Source: Geitlerinema sp. PCC 7407
GTDB taxonomy: Bacteria; Cyanobacteriota; Cyanobacteriia; PCC-7407
Assembly: GCF_000317045.1 (NCBI RefSeq)
Contig: NC_019703.1
Coordinates: 1,104,501 to 1,168,500, forward strand
Direction: 5' to 3'
Length of the DNA: 64,000 bases
The notes beneath the pieces were generated by a model. It was not told the origin of the DNA, ran no database searches, and saw nothing but the letters and a program-made list of their open reading frames with translations. Positions within the stretch are counted from its first letter, which is position 1, and every line of letters begins with the position of its first letter. Position numbers and translations under genes: made by a program. Below are positions 11,704-55,984 of this stretch, in pieces.

Positions 11704-12132
11704 TCTATCCGCCAGCCAGGTTTTGGGTTAACCAAGGGTTCCTTCGAGCTTGGAGAAATCGAATCCCTTGCTGTTGCGTCACACTATGCGCAGATTCTAA
11801 AGTTCGCCGAGAGTACGAACTGCAAAGGCGCAATTGGCGTGAGAATCTTCAACCTGCCCACTAGGCCTTTAAGTCAAGGCTGAGGGCTAGAGACTTCTGT
11901 GAGACGTTTGCCCGCAGGAAGCCAATAGTTTGATTGGCCACTCGGAATGGGAAAAATGCCGGCGGTATTAAGGGCGAATTAATCTTGCACCTATTCTCGG
12001 CTAGTAATAGAACCATTCTGAGGATATAAATCACCAAGCTCCCTAATCAATGCTACGGCAAGACCTACTGAGAAGCTTGGGCTAAACGTCGCGCTAAAGA
12101 ACGGTGAATGATTGGATAGAGTGGGAGCGAAT
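11704..12132. other. Intergenic stretch without a recognised gene
   Basis: About 430 bases between the DUF2973-like gene and the end of the leftward Roadblock-like gene. I found no convincing coding frame, hairpin terminator or RNA gene in it. Confidence 0.5.
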
Positions 12133-12537: not shown

Positions 12538-13091
12538 AGTTAACCACAAATATCAAGTTGGTGAATGGAGAAAATCTAAGCTTGAAAAATCAAAGGAGAG
12601 AAAAAATTTCTATCAGGCAGCTTATAAGGAAAGTCTAAAGGATTTTAAAAGTCTTCGACGACCGTGGGATCGCTCACTTTTGCTTAAAGTAAGTGAGCGC
12701 GTAAATCGGATGGATGAGTAGAACTACGAAGCTTTGAGGATGTTTATTGATTAACCCATATTTTCTTATGAAAAGAACAAGATAGCGTGAGAATTTTATA
12801 AAAAATTTTGAAATCTTAATTCCACGTCCGCACACTTTATAAAGTAAGTTGTTTTTTGCTTTCTTGAAGAATTCGAAGAAAGTCTAAGAGTACGGTGGAA
12901 TCAATGATACAGATAATTTCAAGGATTTTTGTGTAACGCTTTTCAGAATGTTTGTGGGAGTGATTGATTTGCTAATAGATAAATATCTTTATGTATTGGT
13001 TAAAGCATAACTGGCTTAAAAAATAGAAACGTTAAGCTCCCCAAGGCTGTACTTCTGGACAATCTCTAATCTTCATGAAATGGAGGAAGAT
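12538..13091. other. AT-rich intergenic island
   Basis: About 550 bases, clearly more AT-rich than the flanks (for example runs at 12780-12850 and 12955-13030). A rightward 81-codon frame (12476-12721) runs into it, but it overlaps the Roadblock-like gene antisense and lacks a good start. No RNA gene or repeat was recognised. Confidence 0.5.
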
Positions 13092-39320: not shown

Positions 39321-40352
39321 CTAGGCCGCCTCGGCGCTCTCCTGCTCGATGCGCCGTTTTTGGCTCGCGCCCACGGCCTTGATGGCGGCATCTTCGAGGC
39401 GCGCGTAGAACGACGTCGGAATCAGACACAGGGCGTAGACCGCCGCGCAGGTCATCAGCGATCGCCGGGGTTCCTCCAGCACGATGCGCCAGTGGGCCTT
39501 GAGCGCCTTGTGCAGCATCTTGACGGCGGTCTCTGGATCGCGCGATCGCACCGAGCGGCGCGCCAAAAAGCGCAGTTCATAGGCGCGGGCGGCATTTCCA
39601 TGGGTGGCGATCACCTCTGGCGCGTAGCCCCGCACCTTCTCGATCACGCGCTCGAGGGCCGCCACCTGCTTGTCGATCTTGGCGGAGTGGCCGTTGGCGT
39701 GGATGCGGTAGAGAGTCAGCGCTTCGGGGATGCCCTCCAGCTTCCAGTGGGTCAGCGCCGCCATGCGCAGCCAGCACTCCACATCTTCCATGTTGTGGAT
39801 GGTGCGATCGAAGTATACGGGGTGGACTTGGCCGTCAGCGCCCACCTCTTCGTGGCGAATCGCGGCCAGGACTTCCCGGCGAATCACCGGCGTCGAGCCG
39901 TTGCCAATGGGGTTGCGGCACAGGACGTAGCCCGGTGTGATGTCTTGGGTCTTGGCGGTCTGATAGATGCCCAGAGGTTCTCCCTCGCCGTTGATAAAGG
40001 CAGAGTAGCTGAAGCTGATGCCCACTTCGGGCGATCGCTCTAGGTGCTCGACGTGCTTGGCGATCTTTTCAGGAACCCACAGGTCATCGCCATCGAGGAA
40101 CGCGATGTAGTCACCGGTGGCGTGGTGAATGCCCGTGTTGCGCGCCGCCGAGACGCCCTGATTCTTTTGGCGGATGATCCGAATCCGTGGATCGGTGAAG
40201 GTCTTGCAGATTTCGACGCTCCGGTCGGGGGAGCCGTCATCCACCAAAATCACTTCCAGATTTTGGTAAGTCTGATCCAAGACGGACTGGACGGTAGCTG
40301 CGATGTACTGCTGAACCCCGTAAACCGGGATGACGACGGAAACCTTTTTCAT
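39321..40352 (-). CDS. Family 2 glycosyltransferase
   Basis: GT-A fold transferase (343 residues from ATG 40352; the longer frame adds 14). MKKVSVVIPVYGVQQYI, ILVDDGSPDRS (nucleotide-binding Asp), RNTGIHHATGDYIAFLDGDD (DxD-type motif) and a C-terminal helical region with RRIEQESAEAA. It is cytosolic and membrane-associated at most. Sugar and acceptor are unknown. It is closely related to the GT2 at 41046-42077 (same start VIPVYGV, the same CWLRM/CWLRI and EALTLYR blocks), suggesting duplication within the locus. Confidence 0.94.
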   Translation of the reverse strand: MKKVSVVIPVYGVQQYIAATVQSVLDQTYQNLEVILVDDGSPDRSVEICKTFTDPRIRIIRQKNQGVSAARNTGIHHATGDYIAFLDGDDLWVPEKIAKHVEHLERSPEVGISFSYSAFINGEGEPLGIYQTAKTQDITPGYVLCRNPIGNGSTPVIRREVLAAIRHEEVGADGQVHPVYFDRTIHNMEDVECWLRMAALTHWKLEGIPEALTLYRIHANGHSAKIDKQVAALERVIEKVRGYAPEVIATHGNAARAYELRFLARRSVRSRDPETAVKMLHKALKAHWRIVLEEPRRSLMTCAAVYALCLIPTSFYARLEDAAIKAVGASQKRRIEQESAEAA

Positions 40353-41045
40353 GACCGTATTTACGCGAGGACGGACTACACGGACAATCTGCACACACCA
40401 GCCAGCTAAACCTACACAAGCCTCAGTATTGATGCAGGCAACGGATCGCTGCTGGCCGAAATTGAAAGAGAAAACTAAGGGTTTTTAGGGAGAGAACTGC
40501 AAACTTTGGGGTGAGCAGTAGCCAAAGTTTGAAATGAACCCTTTTCCCGAATGGAAAACACTAAAGGCTACGTTGACATACGGAGAGTAAAAACACGGAA
40601 AAAACGGCTCAAGTTTACCGAAACAAAACAATCCAGCCCAAAACTTTAAAGTTTGGGCGAACAATTGCGCGAAATTCGAGAACTCAAGGGGCGATCGCCG
40701 TCTTCAAGGCTCCTGATTTTGTTGGCAAATCCTGACAGAGTAAGGCATTGGGGATTTGGCAACGTTTCTGGGCAGCCTTCCGTACTCCACGAGAGTGCGT
40801 AAATTAAAATTTCGCCACCTAAAAAAGCGGCTCAAGATCTCTACGTGTAAATCCTGAGATTTAGTGTTTATTTAGTAGCAATTAATGCCTATCAATTACC
40901 AGTTTTTGTATCACTATGGGTCTTAAGTTTGTCTTATAAGAATCTTGCGAGAGGGGACGCCTGCGCTAGGACGGCACGCCAAAGCGGCGGACGGCGATCG
41001 CCGTCCGCAAAGCGCTAGAAACTGCTCAAAAGCGTCTGGAATTCC
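40353..41045. other. 693-base intergenic region with iterated inverted repeats
   Basis: Upstream of the leftward GT2 gene. CAAACTTTGG (40500-40509) and its complement CCAAAGTTTG (40522-40531) form one inverted repeat. A second near-palindrome, GCCCAAAACTTTAAAGTTTGGGC, spans 40636-40658. Both share the core CAAA-CTTT. I see no gene. Probably a promoter/operator region or structured leader. Confidence 0.6.
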
Positions 41046-42077
41046 CTAGACAGCCTGCTCTGCCTGCTCCTTCAAAATCTGATCTTTCTGGCCTTTGCCG
41101 GTGATCTGGGTGGCGGCCCGCTCCAGGGACGCGTAGAGCGGCTGGGGCAGCAGCCACAGCAAATGCGCCGCCACAAAGGTCAACAGGGTGCGCTTCGGCT
41201 CCTCCCGCACAATCGGCCAGTAGGTGGTGACCGAGCGGCGCATCAGGCGGGCGGCGTCCGAGGCGGCCTTTAGGCGGATGGCGCTGCGGGCGAGGTAGCG
41301 ATACTGGTAGGCCATGCCCATGGGCTCTAGGCGCTGCACCAGCTCCGGCGCGTAGGTGCGCGTCTTGGCGAGGACCTGCTCCCAGGACTCGAGCTGCTTA
41401 AACAAACTGGCCGAGAGGCCGCCCGCGTTGACGCGGTAGAGGGTCAGCGCCTCGGGCAGGCCCTCAATTTTCCAGGGAGTCTGGAGGACGATGCGCAGCC
41501 AGCACTCGATGTCCTCGGAGCGGCGAAACTGCTCGTCGAAGTAGCAGACCTCTGGGCTGCCGTGGCGGCTGTCCTCAAAGGCGATCGCCTCCAAGACCTC
41601 CCGCCGCAGGACAGCCGCCGAGCCGTTGCCGATGGGGCTGCCGCGAAAGAGATCCTCCACCGTGATGTTTTGCAGCTTCGGCATCAGGTAGGTATGGAGC
41701 GACGCACCCGCCTCGTCGATAAATTCTGATCGGCTGAAGCTGACCCCAACCTCGGGCGATCGCTCCAAGTGGGCCACGTGGGCCGCCAGCTTCTCGGGCT
41801 GCCACAGGTCATCCCCATCGAGAAACGCGATGTACTCCCCGGTGGCGTGACGAATCCCCGTATTGCGCGCGCCCGCCAGGCCCCGGTTGGCCTGCCGCAG
41901 GATGCGCAGCCGCTGATCGCCAAACTGCTCGCACACCGCCACGCTGTTGTCGGGCGACGCGTCATCCACAATCAGAATCTCGAAATTCTCGTAGGTCTGG
42001 CCTAGGACCGACTGCACGGTCGCTGCAATGAATTTCTCAACGCCGTAAACCGGAATAATGACAGAAACCTTTTCCAT
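41046..42077 (-). CDS. Family 2 glycosyltransferase (paralogue)
   Basis: ATG 42077 gives 343 residues starting MEKVSVIIPVYGVEKFI; the longer frame (to 42287) runs into the flippase gene and has no family match. ILIVDDASPDNS and RNTGIRHATGEYIAFLDGDD are GT2 motifs, and the C-terminal part (CWLRIVLQTPWKIEGLPEALTLYR) parallels the GT2 downstream. It lies 38 bases after the flippase gene and should be co-transcribed with it. Confidence 0.94.
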   Translation of the reverse strand: MEKVSVIIPVYGVEKFIAATVQSVLGQTYENFEILIVDDASPDNSVAVCEQFGDQRLRILRQANRGLAGARNTGIRHATGEYIAFLDGDDLWQPEKLAAHVAHLERSPEVGVSFSRSEFIDEAGASLHTYLMPKLQNITVEDLFRGSPIGNGSAAVLRREVLEAIAFEDSRHGSPEVCYFDEQFRRSEDIECWLRIVLQTPWKIEGLPEALTLYRVNAGGLSASLFKQLESWEQVLAKTRTYAPELVQRLEPMGMAYQYRYLARSAIRLKAASDAARLMRRSVTTYWPIVREEPKRTLLTFVAAHLLWLLPQPLYASLERAATQITGKGQKDQILKEQAEQAV

Positions 42078-42115
42078 GGCAGGGCTCGCAGAGGAGGATG
42101 AGTGAGGGCAACAGC

Positions 42116-43396
42116 CTAGGTGGCAAAGGGCGATCGCGGACCGAAAACATAGCGATTGGTCCAGATCAAGAAGATCGGCACAAAGATCACGTGAATAATC
42201 AGCACCGCCGCCGCTACGCCAATGGCCTGCCAATAGACGCCGATCATCAGCGCCACCGTAAAGAGCAGCGTGAAGGCCACATTCCACAGCAGGCCGATCT
42301 GGGGCTTGTCCACTGAGGCCAAAAGCTGGAACGCCGCCGCATCAAAGGGCCGGGGAATCGCCGACAGACAGATCAAAATCAGCACCGGCACTGCGACGAC
42401 CCACTCTTTGCCAAACAAAACCGGCACGTAAAACGGCGCAAAAACGGACTGAACCAAGACAAAAGGCACCATGATTTTGCCGATGGTGCGCAGGCTCTTG
42501 TAATAGCTTTCCTTTAGCTTGGCGAAGTCGGAGCGGACCGCGCACAGGTGCGGGTACAGCGCCACAATGATGGACTGAATAATCGAGAGGCTAATGCCCA
42601 GGCCCGCATTGAAGGCGAAGTAGTAGACTCCCAGTTCCTTGAGGCCCAAAAAGCGCCCGACGATCAGATAGTCCATGTTGTCGCGCAGGGTCTTGAGCAG
42701 GTTGATGCCCAGGATGCTGGAGCCAAACTTAAAAATTTCGCCCCAGTACTTTGTGGTGAAGCCTTTGCGGCAGCGCCAGGGGTGATAGGCGCAGTAAACG
42801 ATGAATTCGATCGGGGCCACCAGGATGCGCGGCAGCACGATCGCCCACATGCCCAGTCCCCAAAAGGCAAAGAGCGCCGTCAAAATATTGGCGGTGACTA
42901 GGGTGATGGTCTGGTTGAGGGCGACGATTTTGAAGCGGTTTTCCCGCTGGACAAGGGACGCCTGGACCCGTCCCAGGGGTCCAATGAGGTAGGTGACGGC
43001 GAGGGCACAGATGGGGACGATCAGCTGGTTGTCGTTGTAGAACCAGGCGATGGGAAAGGCGGCCAGACACTGAAGAAAGAAGAGGGCCGTGTAGACGACC
43101 CAGTTGAGCCAGTAGGCGCTGTGACTGATTTCTTCGAGGCGATCGTCTTCGGCCTGGATGACTTTGGCGCTGATGCCGATGCGCGTGAAAACCTGGGTGA
43201 ACTCGTAGGTGGTCAGGACCAGAGCAGCGAGGCCGTAGTCATACTGGGACAAGAAGCGCGGCAAAATGACGGTGGCCGCGAGGCGGGAGATCCGCACGAT
43301 CAGCTGGGAGACGCCCATCCAGCCGAGATTGCGCACGAAGCCGTCGCTCATCCGCTTCTGGATGGCTGCGCTCACTTGCTCGACAACTTTGACCAT
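42116..43396 (-). CDS. Wzx-like polysaccharide flippase
   Basis: MOP-superfamily exporter (polysaccharide-synthesis type), about 426 residues from ATG 43396. It has some 12 membrane segments and the typical N-terminal pattern GWMGVSQLIVRISRLAATVI, then LSQYDYGLAALVL. Such proteins flip lipid-linked oligosaccharide repeat units across the cytoplasmic membrane. It sits between GT2 genes of the locus, 66 bases from the upstream GT2. Confidence 0.92.
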   Translation of the reverse strand: MVKVVEQVSAAIQKRMSDGFVRNLGWMGVSQLIVRISRLAATVILPRFLSQYDYGLAALVLTTYEFTQVFTRIGISAKVIQAEDDRLEEISHSAYWLNWVVYTALFFLQCLAAFPIAWFYNDNQLIVPICALAVTYLIGPLGRVQASLVQRENRFKIVALNQTITLVTANILTALFAFWGLGMWAIVLPRILVAPIEFIVYCAYHPWRCRKGFTTKYWGEIFKFGSSILGINLLKTLRDNMDYLIVGRFLGLKELGVYYFAFNAGLGISLSIIQSIIVALYPHLCAVRSDFAKLKESYYKSLRTIGKIMVPFVLVQSVFAPFYVPVLFGKEWVVAVPVLILICLSAIPRPFDAAAFQLLASVDKPQIGLLWNVAFTLLFTVALMIGVYWQAIGVAAAVLIIHVIFVPIFLIWTNRYVFGPRSPFAT

Positions 43397-43462
43397 GGTG
43401 CTCAAAAACCGAAAGGAACATGCCAATAGATGCGAGAGGCGATCGCCCCCCGCTGATGCTTG

Positions 43463-44437
43463 CTAGCTCGCTGGAGTCTCGACCCGCACCAAGGGCAAGG
43501 TCTTGTTAATAAACCGCACAATCTGGGCGGCCAGCTTCTGCGGGAAAAACTGCACCACCAAGAGCTTGAGCACAATGCGCAGGGTCTCTTGGCTCAAAAG
43601 GGTGGGGGGATAGGCGGCGATCGCCTGCCCGAGCTTTTGGTAGGCCTGCCGCAGACCCGACCGGTCCCAGGAATTAGACAGGCACTGCTTGGCCAGGTAG
43701 CGATACACATTGGCCAGAGTGCGCCCCTTGAGGGACTGGAGCGAGGCCGGCGCTTGGCGAAAGGCCCGCTCGATCACCGTGAGATTCGCCCGCTCCATCA
43801 CGTCGATTTTGGTGGTCATCGACTGGGACGATCGCCGATAGAGAATCTGGTACTGGGGCACCACAGCAAACTGGGTTTTGGCCGCGAGACGCAGGTAGTA
43901 GTCCCAGTCCTCCACCGACTTGAGCGTCGGGTCAAACAGGCCTGCCGCCGCGATCGCCTCTCGCCGCGCCAGCAGGTTGGACCCGCTGGAAATAAAGTTC
44001 TCCAGCAGCAGCTGAGGATAGACATCCCCGCTGTGGTAGAGCGGCTTCCAGGCAAACAAAAACCGGCTCTGCTCATCGATAAACTGCGTCCAGCTATAGG
44101 CGACGCCCGCCTCGGGATGCTCGCGCAGCGCCTGAACCTGGGCCGCTAGCTTGTCCGGCGTCCACAGGTCATCCGCATCAATAAAGCTCAAAAACTCGCC
44201 CGTTGCGCGCTCGATGCCGCGATTGCGGGCCACCGGCAGGCCGCCATTTTCGTAAGAAAACACCTGCATTCGGGGATCCCCGAATGCCTGGACAATCTCC
44301 ACTGTGTTGTCTGTGGAGCCATCATTAATCACGATGACTTCAAAGTCCGAAAAAGTTTGTGCCCGCAGGGATTCTAGGGTTTCGACAATCGTCTTGGCTG
44401 CGTTGTAGGCAGGCACAATGACGGACACCGTTGGCAT
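43463..44437 (-). CDS. Family 2 glycosyltransferase
   Basis: ATG 44437 (324 residues) has GAGGAG 6 bases upstream; the 55-residue longer frame has no family match. MPTVSVIVPAYNAAKTI, VIVINDGSTDNT and RNRGIERATGEFLSFIDADD are GT2 motifs with DxD. It differs from the other two GT2 proteins in the second half (EDWDYYLRLA), so it probably uses a different acceptor. Head of the GT2-wzx-GT2 sub-operon. Confidence 0.94.
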   Translation of the reverse strand: MPTVSVIVPAYNAAKTIVETLESLRAQTFSDFEVIVINDGSTDNTVEIVQAFGDPRMQVFSYENGGLPVARNRGIERATGEFLSFIDADDLWTPDKLAAQVQALREHPEAGVAYSWTQFIDEQSRFLFAWKPLYHSGDVYPQLLLENFISSGSNLLARREAIAAAGLFDPTLKSVEDWDYYLRLAAKTQFAVVPQYQILYRRSSQSMTTKIDVMERANLTVIERAFRQAPASLQSLKGRTLANVYRYLAKQCLSNSWDRSGLRQAYQKLGQAIAAYPPTLLSQETLRIVLKLLVVQFFPQKLAAQIVRFINKTLPLVRVETPAS

Positions 44438-44801
44438 ATTGCGCTCCTCACTGGAGTAAACGTGCAATTCGATCCACCGCTCAAAGGGCAAGGCGGCCAA
44501 AGCCGGACTCAGGAACTGCACGGAGTCTGTACCGAGTCGCCCGCGATCGCCCCTTCGTTCATGAGTCTGTAGAACTACGGAGCCACGCTTGGCTAAAGGC
44601 ATGGTGCCATATCAAAAAGACGGATTGGGACCCTATCCAGCGGGCTTTAGGGAAAAAAAATATTCGCGCAAAGCCTTGCACTGGTGGCCAGTGAGCCCTG
44701 TTCCGTATTTTCTCTAGCTTCCCCTTGCCTACCAGGGACTGAAGCCCCTTCGAGGCTTTATGAGAGCTTCACAAATTGTCAAAACCCCTCGCAGGCCGGC
44801 C
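44438..44801. other. Intergenic stretch upstream of GT2
   Basis: 364 bases between the O-antigen-ligase-like stop and the GT2 start. An A8 run at 44651-44658 and a short hairpin CACTGG/CCAGTG near 44680-44695 are present; together on the minus strand they could terminate the upstream transcript. No gene recognised. Confidence 0.45.
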
Positions 44802-46154
44802 CTAGGCGGTTTGGGACGCTGCGATCGCCGGCGATCGCTCAGGCGTCTGTACCCGTTCCGATCCAGGCTGCACCGCCATTCCCATCCCCAGCACCACCAG
44901 TCCCGGCCAATAGATATACGCCAGCGTCTCTAGATTTTCGCCCAGGGAAAAGAGCGTCATCACCAGCAGGACCGCCAGCGCCGTCTCCGCCAGCTCACTT
45001 TTTTGCGACTTCCAGATCAGCGTGATGTAGCCCACCGCAAAGCTGAAGCCCATGCCCAAAAAACCCACCAAGCCATGGGCAAACAGCAGCCCCAGCCACG
45101 TGTGGTGGCTGCCAATGGGCATCCTCGCCACCACCTCAGGTCCCTCTGACTCCAGCAGGCCGTGGCCCCAAATCGGCGCATCGTGCCACTTGTACAGCGC
45201 CAGCTCTCCCAGCACCTCCCGAACGTGGGACGAAGACGCCCGCTGCCCGTCAAGCTGAGCCTTAAAATCCTTGGCTGCCTGGTAAAGTTGGGCACTGAAG
45301 AGCCCCCCGCCAAACGCCCCCGCCCCCAAACCGATTTGAACCCAGGGCCGCGAGACATTGGCCAGCAGAAACTGTAGTACTGGCACCGCCACCAGACACA
45401 CCTGCCCCATCCGGGACGCCGAGGTCCACATCATCAGCGCGCTGCCAAACATTCCCAAGAATCGGAGCAGCTGATTGCGCTCGCGCCAGCACAGGAACAG
45501 CAAAACGCTGCCCGCAAACGCCAAAGCTGGTGGCCACGGCGCAAAAAGCTTCATGCGGGCAGTGCTTCCCTCCATGACATAGAAACTCACATGGTAAAAG
45601 CGCAGGCCATTCCCGCCGATTTTGGCTGCCAAGGAGACTGTATAGAGGGGCATATCCACATTGGCCAGGCTCATCACAAAGCCCACCCCGATTAGCCCGA
45701 TGCACTGAATCGCCAAAATGCAGCAAGCGCGATAGATCAGCTGAGGCCGAATCTTGAGACAGCCTGCCAACGGCAAAATCGCCAGCACAGCCCAGGTCCG
45801 CAAAAAGAAATTGACGAAGGACTTGATGGTGCGCCCGAGGCCATACCCCCAGTCAAAGTGCCCCATCACCAGGGCAACGCCAATGACCAAAATCCCCGCC
45901 GTCCACAGCCACAGCGACAGCGGAATGTGAATGCGCTCCTCTGGTGGCGTTGCGTCGCTCTGGCACCAGAGCAGCCACACCAGGCGGCCAAAGAGAATCC
46001 AGCTCATCACAGGCACCAAGATGAAGGGCAGTCCCATGAAGTAGAGGACATTCATGCCAATGATGGTGTACCAGACGACAGCCTCTTCAAAGCTACGGGG
46101 GGTCATCCACAGCCCGCGATCGCGGGTTTGGCCGGATTGCCGTGGCAAAAGCAT
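44802..46154 (-). CDS. O-antigen ligase/polymerase-like membrane protein
   Basis: About 450 residues (ATG 46154; another candidate at 46106) with 10-12 hydrophobic segments and a large non-membrane loop around residues 255-350 (RASSSHVREVL, GHGLLESEGPEVVARMPIGSHHTWLG). This layout and the conserved GSHHTWLGLLFAHGLVG match Wzy/WaaL-type proteins, which polymerise or ligate polysaccharide repeat units. Whether it acts as polymerase or ligase cannot be told from sequence. It sits 149 bases from the co-polymerase gene. Confidence 0.83.
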   Translation of the reverse strand: MLLPRQSGQTRDRGLWMTPRSFEEAVVWYTIIGMNVLYFMGLPFILVPVMSWILFGRLVWLLWCQSDATPPEERIHIPLSLWLWTAGILVIGVALVMGHFDWGYGLGRTIKSFVNFFLRTWAVLAILPLAGCLKIRPQLIYRACCILAIQCIGLIGVGFVMSLANVDMPLYTVSLAAKIGGNGLRFYHVSFYVMEGSTARMKLFAPWPPALAFAGSVLLFLCWRERNQLLRFLGMFGSALMMWTSASRMGQVCLVAVPVLQFLLANVSRPWVQIGLGAGAFGGGLFSAQLYQAAKDFKAQLDGQRASSSHVREVLGELALYKWHDAPIWGHGLLESEGPEVVARMPIGSHHTWLGLLFAHGLVGFLGMGFSFAVGYITLIWKSQKSELAETALAVLLVMTLFSLGENLETLAYIYWPGLVVLGMGMAVQPGSERVQTPERSPAIAASQTA

Positions 46155-46303
46155 GGGGCAACGCACCCGGAGGGTGGGGTAGAAGAACAAAGGATCGCTG
46201 GAGCTAGGGGCCGATGGTGCGCCAAAAGGAGAGCAGCCAAAAGCGCGCAAGTCTCAAAGGCCCGTTAGCAGCCTGAATCGGCGCTACTAGGGCCAGAGTA
46301 TCG

Positions 46304-47791
46304 CTAATCCTGAATGACAGTGCTGCTGCTAGCCCACTGATCTGCTGGAACGGCTTCGGGCAGCGGACGCATCTCTGGATGAGCCTCTCTGAGGCGATCG
46401 CCCGCAAAGCGCCGCTTGCGCAGCCACAGCATCAGCAGCCCCAGCGTCACCAGCGTAGAGCCCATCATCGCCCCGAGCAGCACCAGCTTCGTCTTGGGAG
46501 ACGTCGGATCATCCGGCAAAGAGGGATCCGCGAGCAGCTGAATTTGCGGATAGGAGCCATTGCCATTGGTCCGTCCCAAATCTAGGCTGGCCAGCGTCGA
46601 AGAAAAGACTGCCTCAGACACCTGCAAATCTCGTCGCAGGGCCTCCACCTCCGAGCTGTAGCGAGACAGCGTTTCCAGTCGGCCCTCAAGCTGCTGAATC
46701 TGCTGCTGAAGCTCGCCCGCCTGGGCTTGGAGACCTTGGAGATCGGCCTGAGAGGTCACAATATTTTGGAAAAACGTTTCCCGGGCGGTTCCCCGGCTGT
46801 CGTTGCCGCCATTGAGGCTGAGCCGCGCCAGCGCCAGAGAATCCACAGATCGGCCCAAAATCGCCTGACTGCGCTCCAGCACTGCCAGACGCGCCGCCTC
46901 CTCTTTGGCGCGGGCCCGGACCACACTGGGGTGATTGGGGCCGAGCTTGGAGGTCATCACCGTCAGGTCCGCTGTCGCCGTGCTGTACTCTTGCTGATAC
47001 TGCTGAAAGAGAGGATCAGCCTGAAGCGCGAAGGCATCAGCGGCCTCGTTGGGCGACAGTTCCAGATTCCCTGAAAGCTGAGTGTACTGGGCGTTGACGC
47101 GCTGGAGATTGGCCAGGGTTTCTGCCCGCTGACGGCGGAGGTTTTCGATATTGTTGAGCAGCTGCACAATCTGCTCATTGCTAGCAAAGCCCGTACTGGC
47201 CTGGTAGGACGAGAGACGCTGCTGGGCCGTATCTAGCTTGGCCTGGGCTGCCTGGAGGGCCGCTTCGAGATTGGCGTTTTCCTTCTCGCTTTCCTGCTTG
47301 CGCAGCTCCGCGAGGCGATATTCTAGCGCTTCATGCAGGGCGAGGGCTTTACTTTGGGCCTCTTCGGGCGTGTCAGCGCTCACCGAGAACTGCATGAGGG
47401 TCGTGTTGGGGATGATTTCGATGCGCATGCCGCCGACTTCGCTCGGGGAGACGCCGAGCTGATTGGCCGCGCGCTGGCGCACGCTGGAGCTGCCAGCCAC
47501 AAACTTATAGTTTTCCCGCGGGTCTTGGTTGCGGTTTTCGTAGGCCGAGACGCTGCGCGAAGAAGCCGCCCCAATGTCTGGCAGGTTGACGTTGGTGTAG
47601 GACTCTGGGCCGGGCAGGGTGATGGTCCACTCGCTGGTGTAGACGGGCTTGACGTTGTTGAGGTAGCTCAGGGCTACGCCCCACAGGACGCCATTGATGG
47701 CGATCGCGCTTCCTAGATAGCGAAGCCAGCGTCCTCGCTGTTCCGGTTTCTCTGTGAGGGGTCCAGAGACTGTGAGTCGTTCATCAGTCAT
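46304..47791 (-). CDS. Wzz/GumC-like polysaccharide co-polymerase
   Basis: A 495-residue inner-membrane protein that sets chain length and bridges to the exporter. It has an N-terminal membrane segment (about 25-45), a long periplasmic coiled coil (about 170-415, with ELRKQESEKENANLEAALQ and the GNVR-like SKLGPNHPSVVRARAKEE), and a C-terminal membrane segment (about 435-458). No tyrosine kinase domain is fused, so it resembles PCP-1/GumC forms without kinase. Its ATG overlaps the exporter stop by 4 bases (ATGA). Confidence 0.93.
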   Translation of the reverse strand: MTDERLTVSGPLTEKPEQRGRWLRYLGSAIAINGVLWGVALSYLNNVKPVYTSEWTITLPGPESYTNVNLPDIGAASSRSVSAYENRNQDPRENYKFVAGSSSVRQRAANQLGVSPSEVGGMRIEIIPNTTLMQFSVSADTPEEAQSKALALHEALEYRLAELRKQESEKENANLEAALQAAQAKLDTAQQRLSSYQASTGFASNEQIVQLLNNIENLRRQRAETLANLQRVNAQYTQLSGNLELSPNEAADAFALQADPLFQQYQQEYSTATADLTVMTSKLGPNHPSVVRARAKEEAARLAVLERSQAILGRSVDSLALARLSLNGGNDSRGTARETFFQNIVTSQADLQGLQAQAGELQQQIQQLEGRLETLSRYSSEVEALRRDLQVSEAVFSSTLASLDLGRTNGNGSYPQIQLLADPSLPDDPTSPKTKLVLLGAMMGSTLVTLGLLMLWLRKRRFAGDRLREAHPEMRPLPEAVPADQWASSSTVIQD

Positions 47792-48852
47792 TCAAAAATA
47801 ATCCTCTTGATCACAGAAATGGGGTTCAGAACGGTATTTAGGAAATTGAAGACGCCAGCGAGGTTTTGGACATTTGAATCGTAACAAACCACGCTGTCTT
47901 CCGGCAGGAGAAAGGGATTGGCCTCACTGGAGCCGGAGTCCTTGATCAGGCTTTCGACCGGTCGCTCCATGGCGACGGTTTCGCCGGTGTCGCGATCGGT
48001 CCGAATCAAGACGGCGGTGCGCTTGGCGTTGACCGAGCGCTTGCCGCCGACGCAGTTGGCGGCTACCACGGCCTGGGAGAAGCGGGCGCCGTAGGCGAAC
48101 TGCTCGACGGTGCCCGCGTTGCCGCGGGCGTTGTCCTCCGCCAAGTTTGAGAAGAAGACGCGAACGGTGGTGGGGGTGATCTGAGAGGGACGGACCAAGT
48201 TGGGCTGGTCTTCGGCCAGCTCCGGCACGATGACCTGATCGCCAGCGGCTAAGGGAATGTCGTCGACGGGCGATCCGGTAAAGACCCCCGAGAGATCGAC
48301 GACTTGCTCACGGTTGCCCCGCAGGACGCGCACATTGCGGACGTCGGCGTTGGGCTTGATGCCTCCGACGAGCTGGAGGGCTGAGGTGAGGTAGCGCTCT
48401 GGGGGATAGTCCCCGGACACTGTGGCGATCGAGGCGGGAAGGTCGCGACCTTTGGATTCGGCTTGGTTGATCAGGACGCGGCCTGGATCAAAAACGGCCC
48501 CGGCGATCGTGACCTGGACAGGCGCCCATTCAAAGATCTGAAGGCTGAGCTGGGAGGACTGGGGCTGGAAAAATCCGCGAGCCACCAGATCCTGAGCAAG
48601 CTGAGCTTCGATGTCTTCGACTTCTCGCCCAGCCACGGGGATGGGCGGGATGTAGGGAATCTTGAGGGTGCCATCGAGGTTGACCTCGTAGGTGGCACTC
48701 AGGCGTTCGGCTTCGGGGAGGCCTTCTTCGCCCGGGATGAAAAGCCGCAGGCGATCGCCCGGTGAAAGGGGCAGCGCCAGGGCAGGGCCGCTAGTGAGGG
48801 CGGCGAGGAGGGTGGCGGCTAGGCCAAAAAGGGAAGTCTTCCTAGAAAACAT
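47788..48852 (-). CDS. Wza-like polysaccharide export protein
   Basis: ATG 48852 gives 354 residues with a signal peptide (MFSRKTSLFGLAATLLAALTS, shown in part, cut after ALA). LPLSPGDRLRLFIPGEE and VNLDGTLKIPYIP form the Poly_export domain, followed by two SLBB-type beta-grasp units (VQVTIAGAVFDPGRVLI; later segments around DDIPLAAGDQVIVPE). Outer-membrane export of polysaccharide. No lipobox cysteine is evident at the N-terminus. It is translationally coupled to the co-polymerase. Confidence 0.92.
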   Translation of the reverse strand: MFSRKTSLFGLAATLLAALTSGPALALPLSPGDRLRLFIPGEEGLPEAERLSATYEVNLDGTLKIPYIPPIPVAGREVEDIEAQLAQDLVARGFFQPQSSQLSLQIFEWAPVQVTIAGAVFDPGRVLINQAESKGRDLPASIATVSGDYPPERYLTSALQLVGGIKPNADVRNVRVLRGNREQVVDLSGVFTGSPVDDIPLAAGDQVIVPELAEDQPNLVRPSQITPTTVRVFFSNLAEDNARGNAGTVEQFAYGARFSQAVVAANCVGGKRSVNAKRTAVLIRTDRDTGETVAMERPVESLIKDSGSSEANPFLLPEDSVVCYDSNVQNLAGVFNFLNTVLNPISVIKRIIFE

Positions 48853-49091
48853 GGACGCACTAATACCGATCGAGGGACTGGGCAATAGGCCTCGCGGCGG
48901 GAGGTGAGCGGTGCCAAGGGCGATCGCGCAAACCCCCGCAGTCAATCTTGATTCTGTCGTTCGGAGAATCCTCATTAACTAGGCGTTCAGCGGGAGTTCT
49001 GAGGCGCTGGGCGAGAATTCTTTCTGATGGTAGAGGGAAAGAGGGCGATCGCGAATACGGCTTTCGGAGGGTTTCCGAGGACGCTTCGCTG

Positions 49092-50396
49092 TTAGCTAGC
49101 AAGCCCCAAAGACTGAGACTTTTGTTTCCGCTCCAAAGTTTCCAGAAAAACCTGCTTATAGAGGTCGGCAATGTCCCACCAGCGCAGCAGAATCTGCCGG
49201 TCTTTGAGGGTGCCATTGTCGATGTCGCGGAGAATCTGATCGGCCATGTGGTGGAGCGTTTCCCGACTGGGCAGATTCCGGAAAAACTGCTGGTAGGCCT
49301 CCACATCATTGCCAACCAAAAAACCGTACTGGCCGCCCCCGAGCAGCGTCTCCATGCGATCGCACGGAATGCTCAAAACGGGACGCCCGCAGGAGAGATA
49401 CTCCGGCACCTTCAGGCTGGCGCAGGTAAACTGGTCCGCCATGTATAGGTACTTGTTGTAGGGCGCCACTGTCAGGTCCGCTGCCCCGATGTAGCGGGCC
49501 GCCTCCTTCTGGGCGAGGCGACCGTGAAACACCGCAGATGCACCGCTTTGGCGAGCCAAAGCTTCGAGCTCCTCGCGCTTGCTGCCGTCTCCCACCACGT
49601 GGAGCACCACATTGGCCGGTTTCTCGCGACCGAGGGCCTCGAGGATGGGCGCGGGCTCTTGGATGAAGCGGTTGAGGGAGCCCACATAGGTCAGCACGTA
49701 GGCGTCCTGGGGAATCCCCAGCTCCTGGCGACACTGGGCGCGATCGCGCGGCGCAAAGGTGTCCGGATCCACGCCGTAGGGAATGGGATAGATAGGGGTA
49801 GCGGGCTTGACGTAGCCGTAATCCTGCAAGAAGGTCTTCATTTCGGGGGTTTCGGCGACGATGCTGTCGACGCGATCGCACCACCGCTCCCGCAGATAGG
49901 GCCGCAGACGCTGAAAGCCAATGCTAGCGGCTTTCTTGGCCAGGCTCATCTGAGGCGCCTTGGGATACTTGTACATCGCCTCCACCAAAATCACCGTTGG
50001 CACGCCGTAGCGACCGAAAGCGCTGGAAAACGCTCCCAAAATGGGCCACTCTTTCTCAAAAACCAGGTCAAAGTCCCGGGCATGACGGGCCGCAAACTCC
50101 TGGATTTGGCGGCGGCACTTCCACAGGGCAACGTAGTTTTCGGGGACACAGTAGGAAAAGGTGTTGAGCTTTTCGCGCTCTGACATGGTGTGGGGGTCTA
50201 CCAACGTCAGGTACTTGTGCTCGATGTGGTCGGCTTCGCTGGTGTCGAGCACCTTGCGATAGACCAGGGTGATGTCAAAGTCCTTTTCCAGGTAGGGCAC
50301 CATGGGAAGGGTGCTCAGGACGTAGGGCGATCGCGGCTGGTACTGAATGCCCGGCAGCGCGAGACAAATGCGCGGTTTGCGGGAGGAGGTCACCAT
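49092..50396 (-). CDS. Family 4 glycosyltransferase
   Basis: GT-B fold retaining glycosyltransferase, 434 residues. The acceptor domain occupies 1-200. The donor domain begins near PIYPIPYGVDPDTF, then YVLTYVGSLNR, VVLHVVGDGSKREELEALA and VPEYLSCGRPVLSIPCD with an E-x7-E-like end. The N-terminal half is more divergent than typical GT4. It is separated from the exporter gene by 239 bases. Confidence 0.9.
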   Translation of the reverse strand: MVTSSRKPRICLALPGIQYQPRSPYVLSTLPMVPYLEKDFDITLVYRKVLDTSEADHIEHKYLTLVDPHTMSEREKLNTFSYCVPENYVALWKCRRQIQEFAARHARDFDLVFEKEWPILGAFSSAFGRYGVPTVILVEAMYKYPKAPQMSLAKKAASIGFQRLRPYLRERWCDRVDSIVAETPEMKTFLQDYGYVKPATPIYPIPYGVDPDTFAPRDRAQCRQELGIPQDAYVLTYVGSLNRFIQEPAPILEALGREKPANVVLHVVGDGSKREELEALARQSGASAVFHGRLAQKEAARYIGAADLTVAPYNKYLYMADQFTCASLKVPEYLSCGRPVLSIPCDRMETLLGGGQYGFLVGNDVEAYQQFFRNLPSRETLHHMADQILRDIDNGTLKDRQILLRWWDIADLYKQVFLETLERKQKSQSLGLAS

Positions 50397-50530: not shown

Positions 50531-51259
50531 TTAAGACTGCGTCGCCGCAATCACGTGGTGAACTTCTGCCTCGACGGCTTGGGCAGCCGCCTGAGTTTCG
50601 CCGCGCCGACCAATCACCTTGGCCGGGACGCCCACGGCGATCGAGTAGGGCGGCAGGCTCTTGGTGACCACAGCCCCCGAGCCCACAACGCTGCCTCGGC
50701 CGATGGTGACGCCATCGAGGACGCGGACGCCGCTGCCGAGCCAGGAGTCTTCTTCGATCACGATGCCTTTGTAGCTGTTGCCTTGCTGACAGATGGGGCG
50801 GTTGGGGTCAGCGAAGTTGTGGTTGTTGGCGTAGATCCCGGAATGGGAGGCGATCATGCAGTTTTTGCCGATGCGGATGGCGTCGCCCGATAGGCAAGTG
50901 TAGGGGCCGATGTAGGTGTTTTCGCCCACTTCGATGAAGCCCTGACGATGGGTCTTGATGTCGACGCCCCGATCCAGGTGGGCGTAGTCGTGCAGGTGGA
51001 TGCGGCTGCCCTGGCCGATGCTGCGAATGCGCACGTACCGGTGAAGCTGGACGGAGTAGCCCAGCTCGATGCCTTGGGTCATGGCGAATTCGACGTTGGG
51101 CTGGATATCGGTGCGATCGCCCACCCGCGCGAAGATTTGCCGGTAGAGCAGCCGCCGCAGAATCCGGCCCGGACTCAGGGGAATCCAGCCGATGCTGGTA
51201 ATCAAGAGGGACTCAAGCCAGGTGGGTTGCTTGCCGGGAGTGGTTTTGGGTGCAGTCAT
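50531..51259 (-). CDS. Left-handed beta-helix acyltransferase
   Basis: A 242-residue WbbJ/LacA/CysE-like acyltransferase. Hexapeptide repeats ([LIV]-G-x4) run from about residue 55 to 200 (IGQGSRIHLHDYAHL, VGENTYIGPYTCL, GDAIRIGKNCMIAS, SWLGSGVRVLDGVTIGRGSVVGSGAVVTKSLP). The His in IYANNHNF is a candidate catalytic residue. It probably acetylates a sugar of the polysaccharide repeat unit; this is inferred from context. Confidence 0.9.
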   Translation of the reverse strand: MTAPKTTPGKQPTWLESLLITSIGWIPLSPGRILRRLLYRQIFARVGDRTDIQPNVEFAMTQGIELGYSVQLHRYVRIRSIGQGSRIHLHDYAHLDRGVDIKTHRQGFIEVGENTYIGPYTCLSGDAIRIGKNCMIASHSGIYANNHNFADPNRPICQQGNSYKGIVIEEDSWLGSGVRVLDGVTIGRGSVVGSGAVVTKSLPPYSIAVGVPAKVIGRRGETQAAAQAVEAEVHHVIAATQS

Positions 51260-51380: not shown

Positions 51381-53036
51381 TTAGCTCGCCAACACCTTGG
51401 TCTTCAGCAGCGCCTTGCCTTCACACTGCTCCGGAATCGGCGCATCCATCAGGCTCAAGATCGTCGGCGCCAGATCCAGCGCGTGGCCGGTCACCTCGGA
51501 GTGCGCCTCCACCTCAGGCCCCTGAACAAACAGGAAGCCCTGGGAGCGGTGGCTGCCCGTCCGGAAGTGCGGCACCGGGCCAATGCGGCCCACCGTCGGG
51601 CTGTCCACGATATCCGTGGCGTACTGCTCTTGCCAGAGCACCACCAGGTCCGCATCGGGCAGCTTCGGATCGTTGTCCAGCGCTGATTTGCGGGTCCGCA
51701 TCACCTCCGTCACCATGGGCGTGCCGGTGCGGGCGTCCTTCATCTGGCGCAGCTCCCGCGTGATTTCTTCGCACACAGCGTCGTACTCTTCCGGCGTCAC
51801 GATGCCATTGGCTTCGCGGCCTTTTAGGTTGATCCGGATGTAGCCCTCGGAGAAGCTCGGCAGCGCAAAGGCCTTCATCTGGGGCCAGCAAGGCTTGTAC
51901 CACTCCGTCGGCTGGAAGCAGAGGGGATCGGACTGCTCATTGAGCAGGTGAGGCGACACCAGATCCGGGCCTTGGCTACGACCAAACAGGGGCTCCAGCT
52001 TCTTGAAAACCTTGTAGGGAGCCTTGCTGCGCAGGAAGCTGCGGAGCGGATTGGTGTCGTGCTTGCGGGACCAGACATCCCACAGCCAGGAGTCCTTTTG
52101 GCAGCGGGCGATCGGCGCACCTGGGGGCGTATTGGGGTCGCCCTTGGCCAGGCCGTACTGGCCCGGGAAGCTCCAGCGATAGAGGAACTCCGGCAAGAAG
52201 GTGCCGCTGGGCAGGTCCATGATATTGGAGGCCATGCCGTGGGCCGAAAACACCACGACGTAGGCGTCTTCGGGGGCCGCGCTGATGATTTCTGCGATCG
52301 CCCGGTCGATCGCCTGGAACACCGACAGCATCATATCTCCCGACGCCAGCGGCTTGAACACCTCATACAGTGGGTGATCCGGCTGGCTCAGGTGCCACAT
52401 AAAGTGGCCCGCCGCGTGGGCTTCCCCAAACATCGTCAGCAGCAAATCCCAGCGATCGCGCTTCAGCAGGTCGCGGCAAATCTTGCCCCGCCGCTCGATG
52501 CCCGTCTCCAGGACCTGACGCAGCTTCTCCAGCCCCTTGAGGTCGTAGCAGTCCGCGTGGTCCTCGTGCAGGCCGGGGTGAGGACCATACTGATCCACGA
52601 TCTCCTGAAACAGGCTCTCTGGCTGAGAATGGCTCGGCGTCTGGGGCGAGTGAGCCCCCCAGGCCAGGACCTGTACCCCGTTGACATCCTCCGACAGCGT
52701 CGTCTGCGGCATATCAAACACCGCCACGCGATAGTCCGGGCCGAGGGCATAGAAGGGTTTGAACTCGTCAAACTCGTAGGCCTCGACCAGATCCGCTTCG
52801 TACTTGTCCGGCTGAAACTTGATCGGCGACCAATATCCCGTCTTGTGGGGAGAGCACCCCGTCAAGAACGTTGTCCACGGCGTCTCCGCCCGGTAATAGT
52901 CAAAGTTTTGGATCCGTCCGTAAGCGCCCTGCTCCCGCAGACGACGCAGGGTCGGTAGATGGCCTTCTGCCAGCCAGCGCTCAATCACGGGCGGCTCAGC
53001 GGCATCCAAGCCAATAGCAATGACGGGCCTCTTCAT
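51381..53036 (-). CDS. Alkaline-phosphatase-superfamily protein (copy 1)
   Basis: A 551-residue protein of the type I phosphodiesterase/nucleotide-pyrophosphatase group. IAIGLDAAEPPVIERWL carries the first metal Asp (Asp11), TPWTTFLTG the nucleophile Thr (55/56), and FGEAHAAGHFMWHL the His pair (207 and 211). The late motif, usually SDHG, is SAHGMASN, so Ala265 replaces a metal Asp. No signal peptide, so presumably cytosolic. Within a polysaccharide locus it may act on phospho-linked sugar substituents; this is inference. It is a tandem paralogue of the gene at 53126-54787, 89 bases away. Confidence 0.88.
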   Translation of the reverse strand: MKRPVIAIGLDAAEPPVIERWLAEGHLPTLRRLREQGAYGRIQNFDYYRAETPWTTFLTGCSPHKTGYWSPIKFQPDKYEADLVEAYEFDEFKPFYALGPDYRVAVFDMPQTTLSEDVNGVQVLAWGAHSPQTPSHSQPESLFQEIVDQYGPHPGLHEDHADCYDLKGLEKLRQVLETGIERRGKICRDLLKRDRWDLLLTMFGEAHAAGHFMWHLSQPDHPLYEVFKPLASGDMMLSVFQAIDRAIAEIISAAPEDAYVVVFSAHGMASNIMDLPSGTFLPEFLYRWSFPGQYGLAKGDPNTPPGAPIARCQKDSWLWDVWSRKHDTNPLRSFLRSKAPYKVFKKLEPLFGRSQGPDLVSPHLLNEQSDPLCFQPTEWYKPCWPQMKAFALPSFSEGYIRINLKGREANGIVTPEEYDAVCEEITRELRQMKDARTGTPMVTEVMRTRKSALDNDPKLPDADLVVLWQEQYATDIVDSPTVGRIGPVPHFRTGSHRSQGFLFVQGPEVEAHSEVTGHALDLAPTILSLMDAPIPEQCEGKALLKTKVLAS

Positions 53037-53125
53037 ATCCTTCTCCGTGGAAACTGCTCAAATAACGGGGAAAACAAGTGATATCCGGGCTTTGTGAGCC
53101 CTGTCAGCTCAGGAGGCGATCGCCC

Positions 53126-54787
53126 CTAGCTCGAGAGCACCGGCACATTGACCAGCGGCTTGCCCTCGTACTGCGCCGGAATCGGCGCCTCCATCAAGCT
53201 CAAAATCGTCGGCGCCAAATCCAGCGCGTGACCCGTCGGCAGCGAAGCCCCCGCCTGGACCGCTGGACCACTCGCCACCAAAAACCCTTCCGATCGATGG
53301 CTGCCCGTGCGCAGATAAGGCACCGGACCAATCTGACCAAATTCCGAGCTCGTCACCGTATCCGTCGTGTAAGCTTCCTGCCAGATCACCACCAAGTCTG
53401 CATCGGGCAGCTTTGGATCGCTGTCGAGGGCCGACTGGCGCGTGCGGATGATGTCCTTCACCATCGGCGTTCCCGTGCGGGCATCCTTCATCTGGCGCAG
53501 CTTCTGGACGATCTCATCACACACCGCGTCATACTCCGCCGGGTCCACCACGCCCTGAGGCTCTCGGCCCTTCAGGTTGATCCGGATGTAGCCCTCGGAG
53601 AAGCTCGGCAGTGCAAAGGCCTTCATCTGCGTCCAGAAAGGCTTGTACCACAGCGCCGGCTGGAAATAGAGCGGGTCCCCTTCGGCTTGCAGCTGGAACG
53701 GCGAGAGCAGCTCTTTGCCGCGAGCCTTGCCAAACAGGGGCGCCAGCTTGTTAAACACCTTCGTGGGCAGCTTCTGGCGCAAGAACCCTTTGAGGGAATT
53801 GGTTTCGTGCTTGAGGCTCCACATGGTTCCCAGCCAGCCCCGCTTGGCCCGAGCCCCCGCCATGGGCGCGGCGGGCACCTGGCCATCGGCGCGGTAGGCC
53901 AGCCCGTACTCACCGGGGAAATTCCAGCGATAGAGGAACTCTGGCAAAAAGAACATGCTGGGCAGGTCCATCACATTGGAGCCCATGCCGTGGGCCGCAA
54001 AAACGAGGATGTGCGCATTTGCCGGTGCGGCGCTGACAATGTCGCCCACCGCCCGGTCAACGGCCTTGAATACCGACAGCAGCGGGTCTTGGGCCAGCTT
54101 GCCGCCCACCACCGGATAGAGGGGATGGTCCTCTTGGCTCAGGTGCCAGAAGTAGTGACCTGCCGAGTGAGTCTCGCCAAAAATGGTGAGCAGCAGGTCC
54201 CAGGGTTCGCGCTGCAGCAGGTCCTGGCAAATCTTGGCGCGGCGATCGATGCCGACTTCCAGCTTTTGGCGCAGCTCATCGAGGGCCGCCACATCGAGAG
54301 TGCTGGCGTGGTCTTCCCGCAGGGTGGGGTGCTCTCCGTGCTGCTCAATGATGTCCTGGAGCAGGTTCGCGGGCAGGGAGTGGCTCGGGGTCATGGGCGA
54401 GTGGGCTCCCCAGGCGAGCACCTGAATGCCATTGACTGTGTCCGAGAGCGGCGCTTGAGGCATGTCAAAGACCGCCACCCGGTGGCCGTCCTTGAGGGCA
54501 TAGAAGGGCGGATGCTCCTGGAAGTCGTAAGCGCCGATCTCTTCCGCGCTGTAGTCCGCTTGGTGGAACTTGACAGGTGACCAGTAGCCGGTGTTGTGGG
54601 GCGAAGCGCCGGTCAAAAAGGTCGTCCAGGGCGTCTCTGCGCGATAGTACTCAAAGTTATTGAGCCGGGTGTACGCGCCTTGATCGCGCAGGCGCTGAAG
54701 GTTCGGCAGGTGGCCGTCGGCCATCCACTTCTCAACCAGAGAAGGTTCCGCTGCATCAAGCCCAATTGCGATAACAGGATTTTTCAT
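53126..54787 (-). CDS. Alkaline-phosphatase-superfamily protein (copy 2)
   Basis: ATG 54787 (553 residues, starting MKNPVIAIGLDAAEPSLVEKW) aligns with the paralogue start; a 27-residue extension in the longer frame does not. Motifs match copy 1: TPWTTFLTGASPH, FGETHSAGHYFWHL and VFAAHGMGSN (Ala instead of the metal Asp again). Some DNA segments are almost identical between copies (about 55 bases near 51828-51883 and 53574-53629), while others have diverged, as after tandem duplication with local conversion. The rare pairing suggests two related substrates. Confidence 0.88.
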   Translation of the reverse strand: MKNPVIAIGLDAAEPSLVEKWMADGHLPNLQRLRDQGAYTRLNNFEYYRAETPWTTFLTGASPHNTGYWSPVKFHQADYSAEEIGAYDFQEHPPFYALKDGHRVAVFDMPQAPLSDTVNGIQVLAWGAHSPMTPSHSLPANLLQDIIEQHGEHPTLREDHASTLDVAALDELRQKLEVGIDRRAKICQDLLQREPWDLLLTIFGETHSAGHYFWHLSQEDHPLYPVVGGKLAQDPLLSVFKAVDRAVGDIVSAAPANAHILVFAAHGMGSNVMDLPSMFFLPEFLYRWNFPGEYGLAYRADGQVPAAPMAGARAKRGWLGTMWSLKHETNSLKGFLRQKLPTKVFNKLAPLFGKARGKELLSPFQLQAEGDPLYFQPALWYKPFWTQMKAFALPSFSEGYIRINLKGREPQGVVDPAEYDAVCDEIVQKLRQMKDARTGTPMVKDIIRTRQSALDSDPKLPDADLVVIWQEAYTTDTVTSSEFGQIGPVPYLRTGSHRSEGFLVASGPAVQAGASLPTGHALDLAPTILSLMEAPIPAQYEGKPLVNVPVLSS

Positions 54788-55210: not shown

Positions 55211-55984
55211 TCAGGACTTGGACTCGGTGGAGTAGACCGCGATAGGAGCGGCATACAGGTTTAGCTTTTGCTTGAGGACCAGCCAGAAGAAGAGGGGATC
55301 TTCGAGGAGGTAGCGCCGCCACAGCCGGTTGGGCTCCATGACGAGGCGATAGAGCCACTCGAGGCCCGTGTCGCTCATCCATTTGGGGGCGCGAGAGACG
55401 TTGCCTGCCTCAAAGTCGATGGTGGCGCCGATGGCTAGGAAGATGCGGACGTTGGGCATCCGATCTTTGTATTTGCAGATCCATTTCTCTTGTTTTGGCG
55501 CGCCGACTCCGACGGCCAATACGGTGGCGCCGGACTGGTTGATGCGATCGATGATTGCCTCACATTCCGCTTCGTTTTTCTCGAAGCCGAAGCTGGGAGA
55601 GTAGGAGTCGATGATGATGTCGCGGCCGACTTTGGCGTTGATTTTCTGCTGGGCGGTGTGGGCGACGCCTTCGCGGGCGCCGAGCAGAAAGATGTGAATG
55701 TCGGGGTTGTGGCGATGGTACTCGTAGAAGGCGGGGAAAAGGTCCGAGCCGGAGATCTTTTCTCGCAGGGGAGAACCCAGGAAGCGGGAGACGTAGTAAA
55801 GAATTTTGCTGTCGCAGACGCGGAAGTGGGCGGCGTCGTAGGCTTCACAAAAATCAGGATCTTGTTGAAGCTTCACTAGGTGGTCGACGTTGGGCGTGAA
55901 GACGACGCCTCGATCGAGTTGTTCGAGGAGCTCTTGAAGCGATAAGTTATCGACGGCGACGTTCAGGATACTGATTTTATTCAT
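55211..55984 (-). CDS. WecG/TagA/CpsF family glycosyltransferase
   Basis: A 257-residue GT26 transferase, which adds ManNAc/ManNAcA-type sugars to lipid-linked intermediates. Typical blocks: VVFTPNVDHLVKL, REKISGSDLFPAF, IFLLGAREGVA, VLAVGVGAPKQEKWI and RAPKWMSDTGLEWLYRL. The short C-terminal tail (FFWLVLKQKLNLY) is the membrane-binding part. It is the rightmost gene of the polysaccharide locus and has its own terminator. Confidence 0.95.
   Translation of the reverse strand: MNKISILNVAVDNLSLQELLEQLDRGVVFTPNVDHLVKLQQDPDFCEAYDAAHFRVCDSKILYYVSRFLGSPLREKISGSDLFPAFYEYHRHNPDIHIFLLGAREGVAHTAQQKINAKVGRDIIIDSYSPSFGFEKNEAECEAIIDRINQSGATVLAVGVGAPKQEKWICKYKDRMPNVRIFLAIGATIDFEAGNVSRAPKWMSDTGLEWLYRLVMEPNRLWRRYLLEDPLFFWLVLKQKLNLYAAPIAVYSTESKS

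Follow-up and report, generated by a model that had tools for sequence, protein, structure and literature searches.

Two tandem alkaline phosphatase-fold proteins with a rebuilt active site in a cyanobacterial exopolysaccharide locus: a candidate nucleophile-free metalloenzyme family

A stretch of 64,000 nucleotides from Geitlerinema sp. PCC 7407 (contig NC_019703.1, positions 1,104,501 to 1,168,500; hereafter the window) carries an exopolysaccharide (EPS) locus with two adjoining minus-strand genes, W1 and W2, whose products are divergent members of the alkaline phosphatase (AP) superfamily, a textbook example of an active site conserved with two metals and a covalent nucleophile. We found that W1, W2 and their homologues differ from ordinary relatives at two metal-binding Asp residues and at the nucleophile position, and have gained a new invariant Glu residue (Glu51). 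In our preferred reading, to which we assign a probability of roughly 0.45, W1 and W2 stem from an old tandem duplication within an AP-superfamily subfamily with a rebuilt active site, and represent a nucleophile-free cytosolic metalloenzyme acting on an intermediate of the EPS repeat unit; judged from sequence, the pair has probably been neofunctionalised for a chemistry different from that of the phosphate-cutting family.

Nucleophile position and metal sites

Residue counts refer to 57 core proteins (W1 and W2 included; core being defined by a score over 480 bits) together with two plasmid-borne proteins, 59 in total, and are set against a sister group of ten proteins (the mid group) and 38 ordinary relatives; 30 of the 135 aligned rows, low scorers that are mostly phosphoglycerate mutases, were excluded from these group counts. 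The sequence-only reading that first described the pair had given both copies the Thr nucleophile of the family, which did not hold: Ala50 stands without gaps opposite the nucleophile Thr of the ordinary relatives ('T-P-P-A-W' motif) in three alignments, namely MAFFT alignments of 71 and of 135 proteins and an hhalign alignment of the family profile with 17 ordinary relatives (Prob 100, E 4.6e-69, 490 columns). The Thr of the ordinary relatives in turn aligns with the Thr of Xac NPP, a nucleotide pyrophosphatase/phosphodiesterase (NPP; PSLTFP), and with that of the phosphonoacetate hydrolase PhnA, the position being Ala in the 3t02 chain. Across the 59 proteins, position 50 is A36, T17, G3, S2 and E1, so that Thr or Ser is found in 19 of 59 as against 36 of 38 ordinary relatives. 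In the AETPW motif the Thr is residue 52, conserved in 33 of the 57 core proteins, and Thr56 is conserved in 36 of them; on the strength of the Ala50 alignments and the variability of Thr52 we rejected an ordinary phosphodiesterase with an intact nucleophile. Directly beside this position, Glu51 is present in 59/59 and is newly gained relative to the ordinary family, whilst the mid group shows no Glu here (G5, D4, H1 of 10). In the structural model the helix following the nucleophile loop starts at residue 52, which places Ala50-Glu51 at the helix N-terminus.

The altered metal motifs are present as previously described, with SDHG reading SAHG in W1 and AAHG in W2 and the GE-x-H-x2-GH block reading GEAHAAGH and GETHSAGH. 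The proposed loss of one metal-binding Asp was correct for the SDHG motif but understated the change, as metal site 1 has likewise exchanged its Asp for His207. This His and His211 are each found in 59/59, and His496 is likewise retained in every protein that reaches it (the truncated L042 ends before this point, hence a denominator of 58), whereas position 207 is Asp in 37 of 38 ordinary relatives. Instead of the Asp-x3-His plus distal His of NPPs, the family thus has His-x3-His plus His: metal site 1 is changed from Asp-His-His to His-His-His, and strictly kept in this form. Glu205, which begins the helix bearing His207 and His211 in the model, is present in 57/59, with Asp in the other two.

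At metal site 2, the Asp of the SDHG motif is found in 38/38 ordinary relatives and 1/59 core proteins (position 265: A30, V13, L10, P2, D1, G1, I1, Q1), and all four canonical site-2 residues occur together in 0/59, by which the site, lacking its SDHG Asp, is predicted to be dismantled. The remaining residues can be lost one by one, as seen in L154 (D11G and H266Q), L040 (H266E), L036 (H266D) and L070 (D11E), all of which retain Glu51 and the three His residues. Asp274, part of an insert that follows the SAHG loop, is present in 59/59 and falls in a gap in 8/10 mid and 37/38 ordinary proteins; the core-specific invariant acids Glu51 and Asp274 could replace the missing Asp, but this is not an ordinary subfamily. 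Trp126, His129, Arg401, Trp468 and Arg492 are kept by nearly all core and mid proteins and are far less common in ordinary relatives. A single core protein (L048, G005:C92) again carries Asp in the SDHG motif (FADHGMG), with position 50 still Ala and position 207 still His. The earlier suggestion that the metals are arranged differently or that the reaction is another one agrees with this picture of a His3 site 1, a dismantled site 2, an unconserved nucleophile and new invariant residues.

Fold and relation to known enzymes

W1 and W2 share 66% identity, and both passed the gathering cut-off of PF01663 (23 bits) with 57.8 and 67.1 bits, the best match being confined to about residues 5-274; together with the EPS genes around them, this bears out their earlier description as tandem phosphatase-superfamily paralogues inside an EPS locus. 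An NCBIfam search returned no family above cut-off, and the literature searches, judged by titles and abstract beginnings, brought up no paper on the subfamily. For W2, an in-frame ATG also lies upstream at 54868; the start at 54787 is preferred by the family alignment. The two are the only family members in their own genome, the third PF01663 match there (L005) exhibiting phosphoglycerate mutase motifs in the 135-protein alignment.

AlphaFold2 models of W1 (predicted local distance difference test score, pLDDT, 93.5; 39 sequences) and W2 (92.2; 33 sequences) matched hundreds of AP-superfamily chains, with Z up to 23.8, placing both in the AP alpha/beta core fold. The best solved match was the type I phosphodiesterase/nucleotide pyrophosphatase Xac NPP (PDB 2gsn, 7mw8; W1: Z 23.6, 3.8 Å over 336 residues; W2: Z 23.8, 3.9 Å over 338 residues), with ties within 1 Z unit to other NPPs, sulfatases and PafA; phosphoglycerate mutases tied over part of the chain. 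Xac NPP has equivalents of Asp11, His211, His266 and His496; unlike it, W1 and W2 lack the Thr nucleophile, carry His for Asp at site 1, have lost the SDHG Asp, possess Glu51, Asp274 and the insert after SAHG, and are probably cytosolic. PhnA (PDB 3szy, 3t02) has the same fold and weak N-terminal sequence similarity, but differs in having a Thr nucleophile and a DHG motif. The 2,3-bisphosphoglycerate-independent phosphoglycerate mutase, a cytosolic enzyme with a Ser nucleophile and a two-metal site, is similar in fold (Z about 22-23).

Neither protein contains a membrane span (maximal Kyte-Doolittle means over 19 residues of 1.22 and 1.37) or a visible signal peptide, the first strand of the models starting at residue 5. 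They differ in this from LtaS/EptA-type envelope phosphotransferases, which are membrane-anchored enzymes with a Thr nucleophile; the relation is a distant one within the superfamily, and a lipoteichoic acid synthase chain was matched weakly (E 0.08). The idea of a phosphotransferase decorating the exported glycan, put forward in the sequence-only reading, found no direct support, given the lack of a signal peptide or membrane span and of a residue for a covalent phospho-enzyme.

Descent, selection and distribution

After removal of the motif columns, a tree was built by a quick method from 29 of the 57 core rows, 9 of the 10 mid rows and 38 ordinary ones. It united the 29 core rows in one clade (SH-aLRT 99, a likelihood-ratio branch support); a wider group, at support 99, added to these the nine mid rows (ExHxxGH) of the tree and L079, an ordinary row on a long branch. 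As the mid group was chosen by its ExH motif, its counts for His207 and Glu205 are circular, and only this tree, with L079 falling inside the group, tests it. That the AHG proteins form a clade is supported without use of the motif; residue 265 is itself variable, however (A, V, L, P and others), and ExHxxGH is the better mark. The change is common to the whole family and predates the duplication, as had been proposed. In the tree, W1 is nearest to L006 (9977-11653) and W2 to L008, and tandem copies also occur in the Symploca loci L006 and L017, which suggests that the duplication preceded the separation of the species, although the inner forks are weak.

The family is under purifying selection: the ratio of nonsynonymous to synonymous substitution rates (dN/dS) is 0.26 between W1 and W2 and 0.10, 0.16 and 0.08 for three other pairs, whilst a near-identical pair with few changes gave 0.44 and a sixth was saturated. 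Counting matches at E 1e-100 or better, the core is patchy, being found in 10 of 291 genomes drawn from the phylum of the window and in 9 of 59 relatives, a count that takes in the genome of the window itself. In the phylum of L040 it occurs in 1/349 genomes and in that of L022 in 2/199, with the centre genomes counted; the assignments of both metagenome-assembled genomes may contain contamination.

Genomic context

The window locus runs along one strand in the order WecG, W2, W1, hexapeptide acyltransferase, family 4 glycosyltransferase (GT4), Wza-like protein, chain-length protein, Wzy-like protein, GT2, Wzx, GT2 and GT2 (Table 1). Core genes elsewhere lie in similar surroundings, those of Wzx/Wzy-type EPS clusters: at least two EPS genes occur in 42 of 50 loci and an EPS gene is directly adjacent in 44 of 50, many of the exceptions being short contigs (L147 and L036 are not short). 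In loci of at least 15 kb, at least two EPS genes were found in 29/31 against 0/20 evenly spaced control regions, the former figure being somewhat flattered by a marker set partly derived from the same loci; EPS genes made up 163/486 genes in the long loci and 2/319 in the control regions, which come from four genomes only, one of them (G143) with a mid but no core member. The orders AP-acyltransferase-GT4 and AP-GT4-acyltransferase recur, and a Nostoc plasmid bears the same type of EPS island. Annotated neighbours of core loci include GT2/GT4 proteins, hexapeptide acyltransferases, an aldo-keto reductase and WbaP, with sulfotransferase-type genes in two loci (L021 by Pfam, L041 by BLAST cluster); no single neighbour amongst these annotations fixes the reaction.

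Table 1. Features of the window, with positions counted from its first nucleotide
Feature	Position	Strand	Description
W1	51381..53036	-	AP-fold protein, 551 aa, divergent PF01663
W2	53126..54787	-	tandem paralogue of W1, 553 aa
W1 Ala50-Glu51	52884..52889	-	nucleophile position (Ala) and new invariant Glu, N-terminus of helix 52-59
W2 Ala50-Glu51	54635..54640	-	nucleophile position (Ala) and invariant Glu, as W1
W1 Glu205-x-His207-x3-His211	52404..52424	-	predicted metal-site-1 block; ordinary D-x3-H
W2 Glu205...His211	54155..54175	-	predicted metal-site-1 block, as W1
W1 His496	51549..51551	-	third metal-site-1 His; 58/58 core proteins reaching that point
W2 His497	53297..53299	-	counterpart of W1 His496
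W1 Asp11	53004..53006	-	retained metal-site-2 Asp; D in 57/59
W1 Ala265-His266-Gly267	52236..52244	-	ordinary D-H-G
W2 Ala265-His266-Gly267	53987..53995	-	ordinary D-H-G
W1 Asp274	52215..52217	-	core-specific invariant Asp, insert after SAHG loop
WecG/TagA/CpsF glycosyltransferase	55211..55984	-	next upstream gene; PF03808
Hexapeptide acyltransferase	50531..51259	-	next downstream gene; PF00132
GT4-type glycosyltransferase	49092..50396	-	PF13692
Wza-like export protein	47788..48975	-	PF02563
Wzz/Wzc-like chain-length protein	46304..47791	-	position and weak GNVR PF13807 (20.8 bits, below cut-off 27.7)
Wzy-like polymerase	44802..46250	-	position and hydrophobic look; 0 Pfam families
GT2 glycosyltransferase	43463..44602	-	PF00535
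Wzx-like flippase	42116..43426	-	PF13440
GT2 glycosyltransferase	41046..42287	-	PF00535
GT2 glycosyltransferase	39321..40394	-	PF00535

Further observations were made around these genes. At the end of the EPS operon the window encodes a 762-aa Sortilin/BNR-repeat protein (36914-39202, PF15902), whose relatives are similarly placed in L007, L016 and L045. In L142, two tandem mid-group AP-fold genes lie beside a gene whose product combines PhyH (phytanoyl-CoA dioxygenase) and Rieske domains (11891-13123), with a GT4 gene near. Haloarchaeal plasmid matches in an AsnB-AP-GNAT context were considered as distant members and rejected, since all six sequences read have an ordinary SDHG motif with Thr or Ser. 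At three loci on haloarchaeal plasmids (L156 8082-12762, L161 4004-8687, L159 5965-8573) an ordinary SDHG gene of the AP family is followed by a GNAT acetyltransferase gene, a recurring cassette preceded in two of the three by an asparagine synthase-like gene.

Proposed reaction and alternative explanations

In the mechanism that we propose, a single metal would be held at His207/His211/His496, and metal-bound water or a sugar hydroxyl would attack the substrate directly instead of by way of a phospho-threonine, with Glu51, Glu205, Asp11 or His266 as possible acid/base. A phospho-enzyme is argued against by the lack of a conserved nucleophile, whilst the strict His3 site, the invariant Glu51 and the near-invariant Glu205 argue for a direct metal-assisted reaction. 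The substrate may be a cytosolic nucleotide sugar, a modified sugar or a polyprenyl-diphosphate-linked intermediate handled by the neighbouring glycosyltransferases: these neighbours, together with the absence of a membrane span and of a visible signal peptide, suggest a role in the part of repeat-unit assembly that takes place in the cytosol. By a slight preference, the reaction itself would be one on a phosphoester or pyrophosphate. A mononuclear His3-metal enzyme of AP fold that uses Glu51/Glu205 as acid/base for a non-phosphate step on cyanobacterial EPS sugar intermediates is a more tentative proposal, and one we regard as doubtful; deacylation, elimination or epimerisation would be candidate steps, phosphoryl or sulfuryl transfer through a covalent intermediate would not take place, and the wider ExHxxGH sister group would share much of the remodelled site.

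Several observations weigh against the nucleophile-free metalloenzyme. A second metal site could still be made up with the help of Glu51 or Asp274, and the retention of Asp11 (57/59) and His266 (56/59) suggests that these residues are important. PDB titles call ENPP3 T205A and ENPP5 T72A, exchanges of what we take to be the nucleophile Thr, inactive, which would fit a loss of catalysis as well. The EPS association, besides the shared origin of its markers, is lacking for L154 (Planktothrix agardhii plasmid p1, 2547-8869), where the core gene, whose product has neither Asp11 nor His266, is not part of an EPS cluster and sits between PhyH and nadB-asnB.

A tightly binding pseudoenzyme is a serious rival, even if we hold it to be unlikely: here the proteins would be non-catalytic scaffolds or sensors that serve the adjacent glycosyltransferases by binding a nucleotide sugar or a polyprenyl phosphate. 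The occurrence of Ala or Gly at the nucleophile position in 39/59 and the inactive NPP Thr-to-Ala forms speak for this, as does E. coli AP, whose affinity for phosphate increases by orders of magnitude when the Ser nucleophile is changed to Gly or Ala (PMC3699461). However, the gained invariant Glu51, His207 and Asp274 and the near-invariant Glu205 have the appearance of a catalytic site, and not of a surface for binding, under selection, and the three His residues are retained in all complete members.

It is also improbable, in our estimation, that the proteins are otherwise NPP-like two-metal phosphodiesterases or phosphotransferases in which Glu51 (or Asp274) serves as site-2 carboxylate and water or a sugar hydroxyl takes the place of Thr. 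Two newly gained invariant acids, the retained Asp11 and His266 and the fold match to NPPs (Z 23.6-23.8) would agree with such an enzyme, but L154, L040, L036 and L070 dispense with Asp11 and/or His266 and still keep Glu51 and the three His residues, whilst the wider sister group is devoid of Glu51 and mostly of Asp274. An ordinary NPP or phosphodiesterase with its nucleophile shifted to Thr52, 55 or 56, as implied by the sequence-only reading, is very unlikely: Thr residues are nearby in both copies and the PF01663 cut-off is passed, but Thr52 and Thr56 are variable, the profile alignment runs through the motif without a gap, and both metal Asp residues are changed as well. Decaying pseudogenes or a sequencing artefact would explain lost hallmark residues, but we consider this practically negligible, in agreement with the earlier statement that the change is not decay: decay of W1 and W2 is refuted by full-length open frames in two copies, by purifying selection and by the same invariant positions in all 57 proteins of matching length, across homologues of about 45-70% identity.

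Significance

If the preferred reading of W1 and W2 as nucleophile-free metalloenzymes is true, an AP-fold clade that has lost its nucleophile and one metal site, converted the other metal site to His3 and remained under selection in glycan loci would represent a natural repurposing experiment. The label 'alkaline phosphatase family protein' misleads for this group, which marks a recurring step of EPS assembly in cyanobacteria to which no function has been assigned.

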